NCBI GenBank assembly: GCA_025964685.1
Contig: JAOPYG010000009.1
Location: 1 to 64,000 of the forward strand
DNA length: 64,000 nucleotides
Source: Actinoallomurus sp.
Lineage (GTDB): Bacteria > Actinomycetota > Actinomycetes > Streptosporangiales > Streptosporangiaceae
Direction of reading: 5' to 3'
Below the pieces are notes generated by a model that saw only the letters and a list, made by a program, of their open reading frames with translations, searched no databases and was not told the origin of the DNA. The translations under genes and the position numbers were made by a program. Positions 48,669-58,873 of the stretch are shown here, in pieces; position 1 is the first letter of the stretch; every line of letters begins with the position of its first letter.

Positions 48669-48711
48669 GGGGCGGATGGCAGACTTGGGCTCGCCGAGCC
48701 AAGGAGCTTTC

Positions 48712-49923
48712 GTGAGCAGGGAAGCGTTCCGGACAGGCAGTACCTACGACAACGTCTACTTTCTGTTCCTCGATGCCTCCGGCTACTCCAGCATCGTGCG
48801 TCTCAACCCGCGGGACCGGGCGGCGCACGCCTTCGACCGGCTACGCGACCGGGTCGTCGCGCGGGTGACCCGGCTGGCCGAAGAGCACGGCTGCGCACGC
48901 GCGGTGCTGTGGAGCTGGCGTGGAGACGGCGGTTTCCTGGTCATCCACGACGACAACGAGAGCATCGCCCGTGACATCGCGCTGAAGGCGGCGCGGTACG
49001 TCCTGACCGTCGACCTTCCGGAGCTACGGGAGGAGCTCAGGCCGGCCGAGCTGCGAGGTGAGCTGCACATCCGGATGGCGGTGCACAAGGGCCCGATCCG
49101 GTACGCCGTCGAGAACGACACGGGCGCGATCCACTCACCCGACATCAACTTCGCCGCGCACCTGGAGGAGGTGACGCCCCGCGACTGCCTGGCCATCTCC
49201 GAGGACGTCCACCGCGTCGCGGGCGACTTCGCGGAGCTGTTCGAGCCCGTCGGCGTCTTCGAGGGCGAGAACATCTATTTGATGCGTCCGTGCGACGGGA
49301 CGAGCGACGGCAGGACAGCCTGGCTGAGAACGGCCGGGCTGGCGCGCCGGGTGCCGGTCCAGGCGTACGCCCAGCGGCCGAGCCAGCACGAGAAGGCTCG
49401 GCTCATCGACGCCGCCACCAGCGAGATCGTCGACCTGGGCACTGCCCTGAACACCTGTGCGGGCTATCTCGTCACGACCGAACGCCCGGCCATCTTCCGC
49501 GACGCCGTGCTGGAGTTCTTCCGGCGGGGCGGCATCTACCGTTGCGTGCTGCTGGACCCGGCCGGCGAGGCCGTCCAGATCTACTCCAGGCTTCGCCGGG
49601 AGGACCTCTCGGTGAAGATCAAGGGATCACTGGCGAAGTTCGCCCGGTTCAAGGAGCGCTTCGGCGCGGCGGCGGACGGGCTGCACGTCTACCAGACCGA
49701 TGAGTTCCCCGGAATGGCCGCGTTGTGCGTCGACCTCCGCTCGCCGCAGGCGCTGGTGTTGTACTCGCCGTACCTGCTCGGCACCCGCACGACCACGCCC
49801 GTCGTCGAGCGAGCCGACATGCCCCACTACCTGGCCGGCTCGGACTCCGGTCCGCTCTTCACCACCCTCACCGAGGTGATCGGAGACGCGATCAACGACG
49901 ACGTGGTGCACCGCGTCCTGTGA
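48712..49923 (+). CDS. class III nucleotidyl cyclase-like protein with C-terminal DUF5919-like domain
   Basis: A GTG at 48712 with AAGGAG six bases upstream starts a 403-residue protein. Residues about 12-190 resemble a class III cyclase domain: metal Asp in FLFLDASGYSS, second Asp in WRGDGGFLVI, and INFAAHLEEVTPRDCLAIS at the place of the N-x-A-x-R-L motif, with the usual Arg replaced by His. Residues about 235-403 (SEIVDLGTALNTCAGYLV, YRCVLLDPAGEAVQIYSRL) resemble a DUF5919-type domain. Its end overlaps the nucleosidase gene tail to tail by 32 bases. An earlier ATG at 48676 is possible. Confidence 0.65.
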   Translation: MSREAFRTGSTYDNVYFLFLDASGYSSIVRLNPRDRAAHAFDRLRDRVVARVTRLAEEHGCARAVLWSWRGDGGFLVIHDDNESIARDIALKAARYVLTVDLPELREELRPAELRGELHIRMAVHKGPIRYAVENDTGAIHSPDINFAAHLEEVTPRDCLAISEDVHRVAGDFAELFEPVGVFEGENIYLMRPCDGTSDGRTAWLRTAGLARRVPVQAYAQRPSQHEKARLIDAATSEIVDLGTALNTCAGYLVTTERPAIFRDAVLEFFRRGGIYRCVLLDPAGEAVQIYSRLRREDLSVKIKGSLAKFARFKERFGAAADGLHVYQTDEFPGMAALCVDLRSPQALVLYSPYLLGTRTTTPVVERADMPHYLAGSDSGPLFTTLTEVIGDAINDDVVHRVL

Positions 49924-50860
49924 CCACCGCCAGATACGGCAGCAGTCGTTCCAGGACCGTGGCGGCGTTCTCGGCGGCGATCACATGGAAGGAGTCGTCC
50001 TTGACGATGTCCGCCTGGTCGGAGATCCCGCGGATGGACGACCAGCCCACCACGGGATTCTCGTCGCTCACCTGCTCATAGAACGCCTGAGCGATCCCGC
50101 CGGCCTCGGTCTCCAGCGCCAGCGTCTTGTCGTTGACGGTGCCGAGATAGTCGCGGATGGCGGAGTGGTCGTCGGCGACGACCGCGTCCCCCGAGCCGAT
50201 CGGCCCGGTGAGGACGGTGAACGGCCTCTCGCCGCCGGCCGGGTCTCGTCCGGTGAGACGCAGCGGGTACGGGTGGTCGGCCAAGAAGGCGTTGACGCAG
50301 CGCACGACCGCGGGGGGCACCTGGAGGTTCTGCCCCCGCCGCCGCACTCCGTGAGGCGTCTCCTTGCGCAGGTCGTAGTAGACGACCCCTTGGGCGATGA
50401 CGACGTCCCCGAGGGCGAGGTCGGCATGGATCCCGCCCGCGATGCCGACGAGGACGATGACCGCCGGGGCGTAGGTGTCGCGGATCCGCTGGAACGCCAC
50501 CGCGGCCGAACGCTGGCCCGGCTGGACGGCCTGGATCGCGACGACGCCGAGGTCCGCTTCGTCAATGGCGATCCGTGCCTCGTGGCAACGCCGGCCGTCG
50601 GGAAACGTCTCCTCGTGGTAGTCACCGTGGCGCCGGAGCATCGCCGTGACCGCCGCGGTCTCCTCACTGAGCGCGGTGATGACCCCTACGTCCCAGGATC
50701 CGGTCCTCCGCCGGGACGCGTCGTCCACCGAGTCCCGTTCGCCGGGCGGTGGCGTGGCCTGGACGTGCGCGTTCGGCCCGATCGCGGTGTTCCCCTGGAA
50801 ACTGATGCCACCGCTCCCATTGCTGATGACGCCATAGTTCTGTCGCGGCAGTTCATTCAT
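49892..50860 (-). CDS. MTAN/phosphorylase-superfamily nucleosidase effector with N-terminal signalling-like motif
   Basis: The 322-residue protein has a nucleoside phosphorylase/MTAN fold from about residue 58 (GVITALSEETAAVTAML). IVLVGIAGGIHADLALGDVVIA is the glycine-rich purine site, ALETEAGGIAQAF carries the substrate Glu, and WSSIRGISDQAD carries the catalytic Asp. It should cleave a nucleoside or nucleotide N-glycosidic bond. Residues 8-34 form a separate motif, NYG-x4-GSG-x-I followed by x2-QG-x-TA-x-GPNA, then a disordered Pro-rich linker. The same motif ends the membrane protein encoded upstream, so the two products probably assemble through it. The gene is 27 bases downstream of that gene. 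Confidence 0.8.
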   Translation of the reverse strand: MNELPRQNYGVISNGSGGISFQGNTAIGPNAHVQATPPPGERDSVDDASRRRTGSWDVGVITALSEETAAVTAMLRRHGDYHEETFPDGRRCHEARIAIDEADLGVVAIQAVQPGQRSAAVAFQRIRDTYAPAVIVLVGIAGGIHADLALGDVVIAQGVVYYDLRKETPHGVRRRGQNLQVPPAVVRCVNAFLADHPYPLRLTGRDPAGGERPFTVLTGPIGSGDAVVADDHSAIRDYLGTVNDKTLALETEAGGIAQAFYEQVSDENPVVGWSSIRGISDQADIVKDDSFHVIAAENAATVLERLLPYLAVVTGRGAPRRR

Positions 50861-50887
50861 CGACGGCCCTTTCGACGGCGGACATCG

Positions 50888-52396
50888 TCACGAGACGGTG
50901 GCGTTAGGGCCGACCGCGGTGGCGCCCTGGGTCACGATCCTGCCGCTGCCCGTCTGCAGAATCCCGTAGTTGAGAATGGACGTCTGCCGGGTGCGGTATT
51001 CACTCGAGTCGACGTTCTTCTGCTCGAGGAAGTCGAGGATTATCTCCAGCACGCGGCGTTCGACGATCTTCGCGTACTTCACCGCGTCGACGGACTGGAA
51101 GAAGTGATGGTAGCCGTCGATCGTGGCCATCTCGCGGATGCTCCGGCGGGCGCCGAAATCCGCGAGCCCACCGCTCGGCCCCGAGACCGCCGACCAGACG
51201 CCCTCGGCGTCGGCGGCGTCGGCGGCCACCTCCAGCCTCTCTTTCCGCTTCTTCGCCTGCCGGAAGAGGAGGAACGGGAACAAGACGACGGCCACGATGG
51301 CCTCACCGATCATCGAGGCGGACGACTCCAGAGCGATGCCGATCACCTTCGCCGGAGTTATCCGGTCCGGTAGCCGGTTGACCGTGTGATACGACGCCCG
51401 GATGGGGGGCAGGACGTAGGTGTGCAGTTCGCTGTACAACGTGCGGCCCCGGACGTCGAAGTTCACGAACAGGGAGTTGACGAGTTCCTGCTCCCACGCG
51501 CCGACACGGATGCAGAGATACTCCCGCGCCGAGTCGTAGGCCTCCTCCCCCTGCACGGCCGGGCGGGACAAGGGATCCGGCCACCACGGGCGCTCCCGCC
51601 CGACCGCGGTGCGGTACCACTTACGGGTCACCTCAAGGCCGCGGATCTGCCGTTCCACCGAAAGGTCGTCGCGGAGAGCGCCACGCAGACGATCCTGGAC
51701 GTAGCGCATCATCTCGTCACCGGTGAACTCCTCGGCCTCATCCTCGGAGTCCGCCGGGGGGGTCAGCAGGATCGGAAACGAGGATGACTTGACGAGAAAG
51801 CCCGCACCGACGAACGGCTTGAATCCGCTGTAGTAGACCACGCCGTTGCTGCTGTCCTGCTCGTTCGCGATACGGCGCACCACGCCGTCATTGAGCTGCC
51901 GATGACGGGGCGCGCCGATGTCGGCGTGGTCAGGGCCTTCGCGGCGGCCACCACCGTAGATCGTCAGAACCTGCAGTGTGAGGAGCTTCTCGAGGAAGAC
52001 CGCCGCCCAGACGACCCACAGCGCGATCAGGAACCCGATGACCGCTCCCTTGATTCCGAAGAAGGCCGACACCACGACGATCAGCGGGCTGAGCATGATC
52101 ACTGTCTGCTTGGCCTTCTGCCGGTCACGGGCGAGCAGAGCGTTCCCGAGGACCGGTACGGCGTCGAAGCCGTACGAGGGCGCGACGAACCGGTGGCCCT
52201 CACCGAGCAGTTCCGCGATGACGGCGTCGGCATAGGACGAGTCCAGGTGCGTCCCGGCGCAGAGGAGACGGGTGACGATCCCCGTGTCCCGCCGTGCGGT
52301 CGACGCGGAGCCGTCGTCGACGGACGGCCCTGCCGCGGTGGTGCCCGCTGACGTGCCTTCACCCATGGCGGTTCGCCCTCTCGGTTCGGCGGTCAC
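50888..52396 (-). CDS. multi-pass membrane protein with C-terminal copy of the signalling-like motif
   Basis: No named family is recognised. The 502-residue protein has a cytosolic N-terminal part (LLCAGTHLDSSYADAVIAELL, about 44-64), two adjacent transmembrane helices (about 98-137), a large soluble domain (about 150-345) and another hydrophobic segment (about 350-379). A helical region (YAKIVERRVLEIILDFLEQ, about 441-459) precedes residues 476-501, which repeat the NYG-x4-GSG-x-I, x2-QG-x-TA-x-GPNA motif found at the nucleosidase N-terminus. Sixteen of 27 aligned positions are identical. It is a good candidate sensor or scaffold. The GTG at 52396 lies in a GTGA overlap with the upstream stop; an ATG at 52366 is possible. 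Confidence 0.75.
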   Translation of the reverse strand: MTAEPRGRTAMGEGTSAGTTAAGPSVDDGSASTARRDTGIVTRLLCAGTHLDSSYADAVIAELLGEGHRFVAPSYGFDAVPVLGNALLARDRQKAKQTVIMLSPLIVVVSAFFGIKGAVIGFLIALWVVWAAVFLEKLLTLQVLTIYGGGRREGPDHADIGAPRHRQLNDGVVRRIANEQDSSNGVVYYSGFKPFVGAGFLVKSSSFPILLTPPADSEDEAEEFTGDEMMRYVQDRLRGALRDDLSVERQIRGLEVTRKWYRTAVGRERPWWPDPLSRPAVQGEEAYDSAREYLCIRVGAWEQELVNSLFVNFDVRGRTLYSELHTYVLPPIRASYHTVNRLPDRITPAKVIGIALESSASMIGEAIVAVVLFPFLLFRQAKKRKERLEVAADAADAEGVWSAVSGPSGGLADFGARRSIREMATIDGYHHFFQSVDAVKYAKIVERRVLEIILDFLEQKNVDSSEYRTRQTSILNYGILQTGSGRIVTQGATAVGPNATVS

Positions 52397-53311: not shown

Positions 53312-53886
53312 CTATTTCACACATTTGTCCGATTCACTCGGGGGCATGTCCTGTCTCAGGTCGGCGTACAGGACGATCTGTGCGACGAGAAAGACGATGG
53401 CCGCCATCTCGGCGACGGACACGACGACGAGCCCGGCCGAGGTTCGTCCGGTCGCCCGGAAGCCGACGATCGCCGTCAGTGGCGAGCCACAGAAGGTCAG
53501 CAGGTCCACCCGACCTGGAGGAACTTGCGCGGGGAGCGGCGAGCATCGCTGCGGTGGATGGTCTCCCAGCCGAAGATCACCGAGTCGTCGCCGGTCTGTG
53601 CCGCGAGCCGGGGAGCCAGTTCGCCGCGGATATAGCGACCGATCGCGGAGATCTTCTCGTCGTTCGCCAGATAGGTCCAGCCCAAAATCCGGGATACGGG
53701 CGGAAGGAGCAACACATAGGAAGGATCACGGGCGGAGGCAGAAACGGCGATCACCGTAGCCATTGCCGCGAGCGTTACATAGAGCAGATTGTCGCGGAAA
53801 CCAATTCGGGTGCGCTGTTCGTCTTTGATGCGTTCGTATTCCAGGACCATCAGCCGAGCACTGGTCACCTCGTCATCACGCGTCAC
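53312..53886 (-). pseudogene. four-helix membrane protein gene, frameshifted at a G-run
   Basis: From a GTG at 53886 the frame TRDDEVTSARLMVLEYERIKD encodes a cytosolic helix and two transmembrane helices. It continues to KFLQVGWTC and a stop at 53497. The neighbouring frame then reads VDLLTFCGSPLTAIVGF and a fourth helix AGLVVVSVAEMAAIVFLVAQIV to a stop at 53312. Adding one G to the GGG at 53509-53511 (minus strand) fuses the halves into a natural 191-residue four-helix protein. This is a recent single-base loss, a sequencing error or programmed frameshifting. It heads the operon that contains the paired-motif genes. Confidence 0.7.
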
Positions 53887-54027
53887 CGAACCCGCCCTTC
53901 CTCTTTTCTCGGTATGCGCGAAACCGACTCGCGGGTCGGTGGCACATGTCACGCGGACGACGCGGAAGGATCAGCGTCGGCAAAGCCGCATAGCGTCCGT
54001 GCTACGAATGTCGCTACTGTCGGCGCC

Positions 54028-57104: not shown

Positions 57105-58616
57105 TCAGTGCGTGTTGACGGTGAAGGCCAGTTTCGTCTGACGGCCCCCGGACACGGTCACCGTTACCTGATGGGACCCCGGCGGGATCTTCCCGGCGAA
57201 GAACTCATGGCCCTGGTTGATGACATAGCTGAACACTCCCCCGAAGTCGACCACGGGCGTGAACGGCGACACCGGTCCACGGTCGACCTGGATGGTGACC
57301 TTCCGCCCAGGTGTCAAGCCCGCACCGTGGACGGTGAACCCGGTGTTCCCGTCGCCGAAGTTCTGGCTCAGGGCGATGCTCGAGCTCCCCGACACGCGAG
57401 GCGGGCCGTTGTTCCCCGGGGGGAAGTCAGCGGGAGGCGGCCCCGGCGGCCGGTTCGGGTCACCGGACGTCCTCCCCAGTGCCATGCCGAGAAGCAGTGC
57501 CCCGGCCATCACGGCTAACGCCACGGCGGAGATCAGAATGATGCGCGTGGACCCGCCGTGACGCGGGGGCGTACGGGGCGGTGCCGCCGGTGCGGGCGGC
57601 CGGCGGGGCAGGTTCGGTGGCCGGGAGGGTGCCCCCAAGGACGTCGGGGAGTCCAGCGTCGGATCGGCGACGCCGCCCTCGCCGGCGCGCACCGGCGTGG
57701 ACGGCCGCTTGCCCTGCCGGTACTGCTCGATCAGGTCGACCGCGTCGGCGGGCAGCGGTGCCGGGCGCAGCTCGTAGTCGCCGTCCTCGTCCAGCTGCTC
57801 GGCCAGGCCGGCCAGCAGGGCAGCGGCGGTGGGCCGGGCGTCGGGGTCACGCTGAAGGCATTCGCGGACCAGGTCGGCCACCTCGTCGGGCACACCGGTC
57901 AGATCCGGTTCCTCGGTCGCCAGCCGGACCAGGACGTCGGTGACCGAGTCCCCGGAGTACGGCGGGTGGCCGGTGGCGGCGTACAGCAGGGTCGAACCGA
58001 GTGAGAAGACATCGCTCGCCGCCACGGTCTGCCGGCTGTCGCGTGCCTGCTCGGGCGCCATGTACGCGGGGGTGCCGACGGCCTGGTGCGTCGCGGTGAC
58101 CGTGCTGCGCTCGGTCGCCCGCGCCACCCCGAAGTCGATCACCCGTGGGCCGTCGGCGGAGACCAGGACGTTGGACGGCTTGAGGTCGCGGTGCACCAGT
58201 CCGGCCTGGTGGATCGACTCCAGCGCCTCGGCGCAACCGGCGGCCAGCCAGCGCAGGGCCTCGACCGGCAGCGGCCCACAGGCCCGCACCAGCTGCTCGA
58301 GTGAGGGCGCCGGAATGTAGGCGGTGGCCAGCCACGGGATCTCGGCGTCCGGGTCGGCGGCGACGACCGCGGCGGTGTAGACCCCGCTCACCCGGCCGGC
58401 GGCCGTCACCTCATGGGCGAACCGGGTACGGAAGTCACCGTCGGCGGCGAACTCGCTTCTGATCGTCTTGACCGCCACCAGCCGGCCCGACGCCGACCTT
58501 CCCAGGTAGACCCGGCCCATCGCACCGGTGCCCAGCCGCGCCAGGAGCAGGTAGCCGCCGACACGTAGGGGGTCCTGCTGAGACAGTGGCTCGAGTCCCG
58601 CGTCCCCTGACCCCAT
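57105..58616 (-). CDS. membrane-anchored serine/threonine protein kinase (Hanks type)
   Basis: The 503-residue kinase has the glycine loop RLGTGAMGRVYLG (28-40), Lys50 in VAVK, catalytic HRDLKPSN (142-149), DFG (161-163) and APE-type MAPEQ (about 186-190). A Pro-rich linker (about 322-352), a transmembrane helix (about 358-380), a Pro-rich stalk and a C-terminal extracellular Ig-like domain (about 410-503) follow. It should sense an outside signal and phosphorylate cytosolic proteins. The ATG at 58616 has GGAGGAG upstream. Confidence 0.92.
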   Translation of the reverse strand: MGSGDAGLEPLSQQDPLRVGGYLLLARLGTGAMGRVYLGRSASGRLVAVKTIRSEFAADGDFRTRFAHEVTAAGRVSGVYTAAVVAADPDAEIPWLATAYIPAPSLEQLVRACGPLPVEALRWLAAGCAEALESIHQAGLVHRDLKPSNVLVSADGPRVIDFGVARATERSTVTATHQAVGTPAYMAPEQARDSRQTVAASDVFSLGSTLLYAATGHPPYSGDSVTDVLVRLATEEPDLTGVPDEVADLVRECLQRDPDARPTAAALLAGLAEQLDEDGDYELRPAPLPADAVDLIEQYRQGKRPSTPVRAGEGGVADPTLDSPTSLGAPSRPPNLPRRPPAPAAPPRTPPRHGGSTRIILISAVALAVMAGALLLGMALGRTSGDPNRPPGPPPADFPPGNNGPPRVSGSSSIALSQNFGDGNTGFTVHGAGLTPGRKVTIQVDRGPVSPFTPVVDFGGVFSYVINQGHEFFAGKIPPGSHQVTVTVSGGRQTKLAFTVNTH

Positions 58617-58873
58617 TCGGCTCCTCCGCTTCGCACGACAATCGGCACTATCTTCCCGATTCCTGACACAGAGGCAGACCGGATCCGACAAGTTCATCAC
58701 AGATCGTGGCTGACCTGCGGCAATCAGTACGCGACCGGAACCGGTCGCCGGCCTCGGCGGGTCGGCGGCCTCCGATCGCCGACCTGCGCCGGATTTCCGA
58801 CATATTCCACCAATTTATCTGTTAGGTCCGGAAACATTGACGGCCGAATTTGTGATCGTCCACGATTCGGGCC
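58617..58873. promoter_or_regulatory. divergent region between the kinase and the alpha-galactosidase
   Basis: The 257-base region includes an AT-rich patch (58800-58860) that probably holds the alpha-galactosidase promoter. I see no clear palindromic operator. Confidence 0.35.

Follow-up and report, generated by a model that had tools for sequence, protein, structure and literature searches.

A candidate membrane-anchored signalling operon of Actinoallomurus whose putative sensor and effector share a locus-private motif

The first 64,000 nucleotides of contig JAOPYG010000009.1 of Actinoallomurus sp. (assembly GCA_025964685.1; hereafter the window) carry an apparent operon, headed by P0003, in which a membrane protein (P0002) and the nucleosidase encoded by the next gene (P0001) share a motif of 27 residues. 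Across 158 actinomycete loci, almost every P0002-family gene precedes a gene whose N-terminus copies the C-terminal motif of the same locus, and these motifs diverge strongly between loci yet match within each one. Specific coupling through the motif within a locus is well supported by the sequences, and the operon is probably a membrane-anchored sensor/effector unit in which a homotypic motif switches the effector on, much like an amyloid signalosome that works without an NLR.

Motif matching within loci

In the window, residues 476-501 of P0002 and 8-33 of P0001 align without gaps and with 16 identities, or 16 of 27 when the last position is included. A first-pass annotation of the window had described this 27-residue motif, and its coordinates and reading proved correct. 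Ungapped local alignment of the two whole proteins scores 84, whereas the best of 2,000 shuffles of the whole proteins reached 80 (Gumbel P ~1e-5), and no comparable copy was found in the other open reading frames of the 64-kb window, where the next best score was 41. The motifs in general are poor in charge and consist to 49-51% of G+N+Q+S+T, as compared with 23% in the remainder of the membrane protein.

The link that the first-pass annotation had drawn between the membrane protein and the adjacent nucleosidase extends well past the window: the motif is conserved and co-varies in homologues at well over a hundred loci, which is much stronger evidence than the alignment of the window pair by itself. 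Examples of pairs quite unlike that of the window include GATFHGGRHSFSGSTFGSGDIHHH with GATFHGGRHSFSDSTFGSGDIHHH at L217, GSNFGNAPGSNFGNAPGSSFRG with GSNFGNAPGSNFGHAPGSTFHG at L172, and GINFGKAEAGSHFGA with GINFGTAESGSHFGA at L183. Over all 158 loci, the mean cognate motif score was 70.8 versus 34.5 for permuted pairs, and the maximum of 10,000 permutations was 39.0. To remove any bias from picking the best-matching downstream reading frame, partners were also selected without reference to the motif. For 57 nucleosidase pairs selected by hidden Markov model, cognate pairs scored 77.1 versus 49.6 (standard deviation 1.5) when permuted, with none of 10,000 permutations as high, and for 71 DUF5955 pairs selected with a model of the domain from which the motif was left out, the values were 65.3 and 33.8 (standard deviation 1.3). 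Overlapping reading frames were likewise dismissed as the source of the match, as removal of ten pairs with overlapping motif DNA left 148 loci that still scored 69.7 versus 34.7. Segments lying just outside the motif in the same proteins showed no cognate excess (P 0.42). Moreover, in genomes with several systems, an effector matched its own membrane partner best in 17 of 20 instances (63 versus 32), which suggests that co-resident systems are insulated from one another.

Identical residues use the same codon in 62.7% of cases in cognate pairs and 52.0% in non-cognate pairs, and the motif pairs of L120 and L149 are nearly identical in codons. These codon data argue that the matching acts at the protein level, and gene conversion as its sole cause was rejected on the same grounds. 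The match must, moreover, be maintained, because unconstrained old duplicates would differ equally within and between loci.

Exchange of partners

The partner of the membrane protein is not always a nucleosidase. Among 159 loci, the downstream partners comprise 74 nucleosidases, 72 small DUF5955-type proteins, four TIR proteins (PF10137, Pfam CAP12-PCTIR_TIR), and three EAD1 proteins, with six loci lacking an evident partner. The same membrane family is thus also paired with further effectors of the kinds usually met in conflict systems, and the signalling and cell-death interpretation of the first-pass annotation, taken as a whole, is partly supported. The three EAD1 cases (L192-L194) consist of one partner recognised by Pfam (L193, PF19955) and two with EAD1-like sequences (L192 and L194); EAD1 occurs on the partner, and none was recognised on the membrane protein. 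These partners, which come from one other family of the class, provide a link to EAD conflict networks.

For partners with DUF5955 (PF19380), a domain of which no mention was found in the open literature searched, AlphaFold predicts that the N-terminal motif is disordered and leads into a four-helix bundle modelled with confidence (pLDDT 86). The bundle had no significant fold match in the PDB. One DUF5955-type partner showed a weak Pfam match to a beta-solenoid (E 9e-4). A DUF5955 search of eight genomes returned one match in each of seven, six of which sit at a system locus; the window's own genome (88% complete) had no match.

In a tree of the membrane core, with the motif left out, the nucleosidase label requires four changes, all of them forced by well-supported branches, although the placement of L217 is less sure because of its long branch. 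P0002 of the window groups as sister with L002, which comes from its own genus (support 100) and is partnered by a DUF5955 protein with its own matched motif. The matched motif persists while the partner changes. It seems likely that the operon belongs to a large, undescribed class of signalosome, with NLR-free membrane sensors, private and fast-diversifying homotypic tails, exchangeable effectors (nucleosidase, TIR, DUF5955, and EAD1), and several insulated copies per genome.

Distribution of the gene pair

Relatives of P0002 occur in 138 of the 299 genomes of the order Streptosporangiales, and relatives of P0001 in 140 of the 299, a set that includes many more distant nucleosidases. When loci were gathered from named genomes with the nucleosidase as the sole query, blind to the membrane gene, a P0002-family gene adjoined the nucleosidase in 64 of 71. 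The first-pass annotation had named homologues that lack the motif or never co-occur as evidence that would count against it, and the 64 loci show the opposite pattern. The exceptions are a locus at a contig edge (L115), two fragmentary nucleosidases (L130 and L141), L088, a gene of Streptomyces whose N-terminus carries an unusual fusion, and three loci with neither motif nor membrane partner. Of these three, L083 is a single gene, and L140 and L142 are Bacteroidota fusions, proteins of about 1,300 residues that end in a close relative of the nucleosidase. Where the gene order is reversed (L081), the motif is still common to both genes. In Nocardiopsis eucommiae (L149), neither the membrane gene nor the nucleosidase has an intact reading frame, the breaks lying close to a motif pair that is almost perfect, and this locus is probably a decayed system.

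The proteins of the operon

The P0001 nucleosidase matches Pfam PF01048 (PNP_UDP_1; E 3e-18), the PADLOC model for PN-superfamily effectors (E 9e-23), and, by profile search of the PDB, solved MTA/SAH nucleosidases (MTANs; E 3e-20). Residues E67, E252, and D281 align with the catalytic Glu, Glu, and Asp of MTANs and are invariant in 23 homologues, so that fold and catalytic residues, as read from the alignments, place P0001 in the MTAN/PNP_UDP superfamily. The position of its N-terminal motif is conserved across the aligned homologues, and the head that carries it is presumed to be disordered, as in the modelled DUF5955 partner.

P0002 has no match in Pfam, PADLOC, or NCBIfam. Its AlphaFold model, built with 63 sequences (pLDDT 83.5, pTM 0.82), predicts a disordered N-terminus (1-38), a two-helix membrane hairpin (~90-150), a soluble alpha/beta domain (~185-345), and long helices at 348-400 and 432-476 that lead into the motif tail. 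Residues 481-502 of this tail, at a pLDDT of ~47-51, appear disordered beside the confident core. A search of the PDB gave no fold match at E<=0.001, and a helix-grip or START-like fold, to which there were weak matches only, was left unused. No Pfam match to an NTPase domain was obtained in P0002 and 62 relatives, which, together with the predicted hairpin and alpha/beta domain, bears out the earlier proposal that a membrane protein stands here in place of an NLR. Hydropathy peaks a third time at residue 360, within a helix that is polar in relatives. An FHA domain is found at the N-terminus of one relative and zinc ribbons in two (L004, L005 and relatives); these domains, together with the even number of membrane passes, suggest that both ends of P0002 are cytosolic. 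The same N-terminal domains may also hint at the signal that is sensed.

P0003 shows a hydropathy peak at residue 39, and its stop overlaps the start of P0002 (GTGA), which makes translational coupling probable; P0002 and P0001 are separated by 27 bases (Table 1). The P0003 family was present in 42 fetched loci, mostly adjoining DUF5955-type systems, as well as next to the window's nearest relative, and is missing from some loci. Among the P0003-bearing loci counted, the window is the only one of the nucleosidase type, which would fit a recent replacement of the effector.

Table 1. Features of the operon and neighbouring genes (window coordinates)
Feature	Coordinates	Strand	Description
P0001	49892-50860	-	322 aa; nucleosidase, putative effector; PNP_UDP_1 domain at residues 58-307
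P0002	50888-52396	-	502 aa; membrane protein, putative sensor/transducer
P0003	52393-53163	-	one N-terminal transmembrane helix and a probably extracytoplasmic helical domain; putative accessory sensor
Motif copy on membrane protein	50891..50971	-	P0002 residues 476-502, extreme C-terminus; NYGILQTGSGRIVTQGATAVGPNATVS
Motif copy on effector	50759..50839	-	P0001 residues 8-34, N-terminus; NYGVISNGSGGISFQGNTAIGPNAHVQ
Convergent gene	48676-49923	+	overlaps the nucleosidase 3' end by 32 bases
Upstream gene	53497-53895	-	small hydrophobic protein
Kinase gene	57108-58700	-	Ser/Thr protein kinase

Comparison with known systems

Among the closest parallels are the BASS signalosomes, which pair an NLR with a BELL protein in two genes and are also found with TIR domains (PMC7889193, PMC8086366). 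The likeness lies in the adjacent or overlapping genes, the occurrence in filamentous actinomycetes, and the short, diverse, Gly/Asn-rich terminal motif. BASS receptors are NLRs, however, whereas a small membrane protein, in which neither an NTPase nor an NLR domain is detectable, takes the receptor's place here, and the system is not filed as a BASS member because this feature was tested and is absent. Further differences are the placement of the motif, at the sensor's C-terminus and the effector's N-terminus, and the partners, which carry PNP_UDP_1, PF10137, PF19955, or PF19380 and no BELL domain, although a BELL-like role for the DUF5955 bundle is possible.

Another parallel is the fungal PUASM system, in which a receptor and a neighbouring PNP_UDP nucleosidase are linked by a short motif that has been shown to assemble into fibrils and prion foci (PMC9815663). 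It differs in being fungal, in its NACHT receptor, and in its motif, FxGxGxQxxGxGxF, which is located at the C-terminus of the effector. Detocs, with its ATP-cleaving PNP, and the TIR effectors of CBASS CAP12 and Pycsar use the same enzyme superfamilies, a match at the superfamily level only; here, no two-component, cyclic-nucleotide, or STAND partner was recognised, and activation would apparently proceed via the motif. Finally, the EAD/EACC1 'System 4' of multicellular actinobacteria (PMC7159879) also combines a membrane component with exchangeable partners and has homotypic couplers that resemble each other most when their genes are neighbours, and EAD1 itself is a partner here. EACC1, in contrast, is a single-pass protein with a caspase partner, and EADs are folded domains as opposed to a 27-residue tail; no folded effector-associated domain was found on both components, which have just the short motif in common. 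No description of such a system was found in the open-access journal papers searched, to which the original BASS article does not belong.

Proposed mechanism and alternative explanations

The most probable reading is that P0002, together with P0003, senses an unspecified event at the membrane, and that this stimulus exposes or clusters the disordered, cytosolic C-terminal tail of P0002. The tail would then pair with its homologous counterpart at the N-terminus of the effector encoded by the next gene and nucleate the assembly of effector heads, in the simplest form through homotypic beta-stacking and amyloid-like templating, and the enzyme would be activated by proximity in the assembled heads. 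The MTAN/PNP-fold effector of the window could thereby deplete a substrate of the nucleotide type, either ATP or another purine nucleoside, resulting in arrest or death. In sister systems, the effector driven by the same membrane family would be a TIR enzyme, the four-helix DUF5955, or EAD1 acting as an adaptor. PNP-family effectors contribute to immune cell death by cleaving ATP, as TIRs do by cleaving NAD (reviewed in PMC12881547).

The disordered tail, the matched head, the exchangeable partners, the insulation, and the richness in Gly/Asn/Ser/Thr/Gln together suggest homotypic-motif behaviour, and the composition and predicted disorder are compatible with amyloid formation. From these sequences and models, on which the whole reading rests, we infer direct motif-motif binding, beta or amyloid assembly, activation over inhibition, toxicity, and immunity, as well as a trigger at the membrane and a part in suicide or phage defence, the latter put forward as a hypothesis.

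If true, homotypic-motif (amyloid-type) signalling in bacteria would extend beyond NLRs to a family of membrane receptors, a parallel with the animal membrane receptors that signal via RHIM adaptors. Moreover, the wealth of naturally occurring sensor/effector pairs, which number well over a hundred, differ in their motifs, and include several swapped effectors, would make motif specificity and its evolution directly testable, and a context is given to DUF5955 and to a membrane family that has no Pfam model.

Several observations weigh against this interpretation. Four membrane proteins with a motif-like tail (L013, L023, L027, and L187) have no matching downstream gene, and may be orphans or have partners located elsewhere. 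No homologue was found in phage records and just two in the plasmid collection, both on very large replicons, and the models scanned revealed no defence island in the window, where the neighbourhood is one of ordinary metabolism. The motif scored hardly above shuffled sequences against one published BASS3 and one BASS3-like peptide, BASS3 being the only class compared. Proline, which is unusual for a cross-beta core, lies inside many motifs (GPNA, SGPIA). Finally, we know of no experiments on any member of the system.

The prolines bear directly on a possible, if rather doubtful, alternative in which the motif is a specific homotypic coupler of a non-amyloid kind, with a small beta-solenoid, a beta-roll, or an oligomer of defined size holding the effector to the sensor. 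The A-x-G-x-x-A pattern, regular in 121 of the 158 membrane tails, would suit such a structure, as A-hydrophobic-G-x-x-A recalls YadA-head or hexapeptide turns, and the weak beta-solenoid match in one DUF5955-type partner points the same way. The motifs are nevertheless ~25-30 residues long, rich in Gly/Asn/Ser/Gln, terminal, disordered, and highly diverse, just like validated amyloid signalling motifs (PMC7889193, PMC9815663).

A role in metabolic or developmental regulation of filamentous actinomycetes, such as spore formation or nucleotide recycling, with no part in conflict, is unlikely but would agree with a system so widespread in its order, chromosomal, and set in an ordinary neighbourhood, and with the many DUF5955 partners without known toxicity. 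Patchy occurrence, partner replacement, and strong diversification of the motif speak against it, as does the recruitment of partners from the immune repertoire (CAP12-type TIR, PNP, and EAD1).

It is improbable that the membrane protein instead sequesters the effector, keeping it inactive through the matched motif like an antitoxin and releasing it on a signal. Holding fits matched motifs as well as activation does, and the genes are adjacent and often overlap, but known motif-paired systems activate by assembly, and it is oligomerisation that usually turns TIR and PNP effectors on. Finally, neutral duplication or gene conversion that keeps the stretches alike without shared function is very improbable and disfavoured. 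The slight codon-sharing excess and the L120 and L149 pairs speak for it, but the excess covers at most ~1/5 of the identical positions, nothing matches outside the motif, and the matching survives partner replacement.

Neighbouring genes

The gene convergent with the nucleosidase gave no Pfam match above cut-off (a weak one to DUF5919), and its N-terminal half resembles, by eye only, a nucleotide-cyclase domain. Upstream of the operon, the small hydrophobic protein had no family match. Finally, the Ser/Thr kinase matches many PADLOC kinase models (PD-T4-6, mad6), which probably reflects general kinase similarity.

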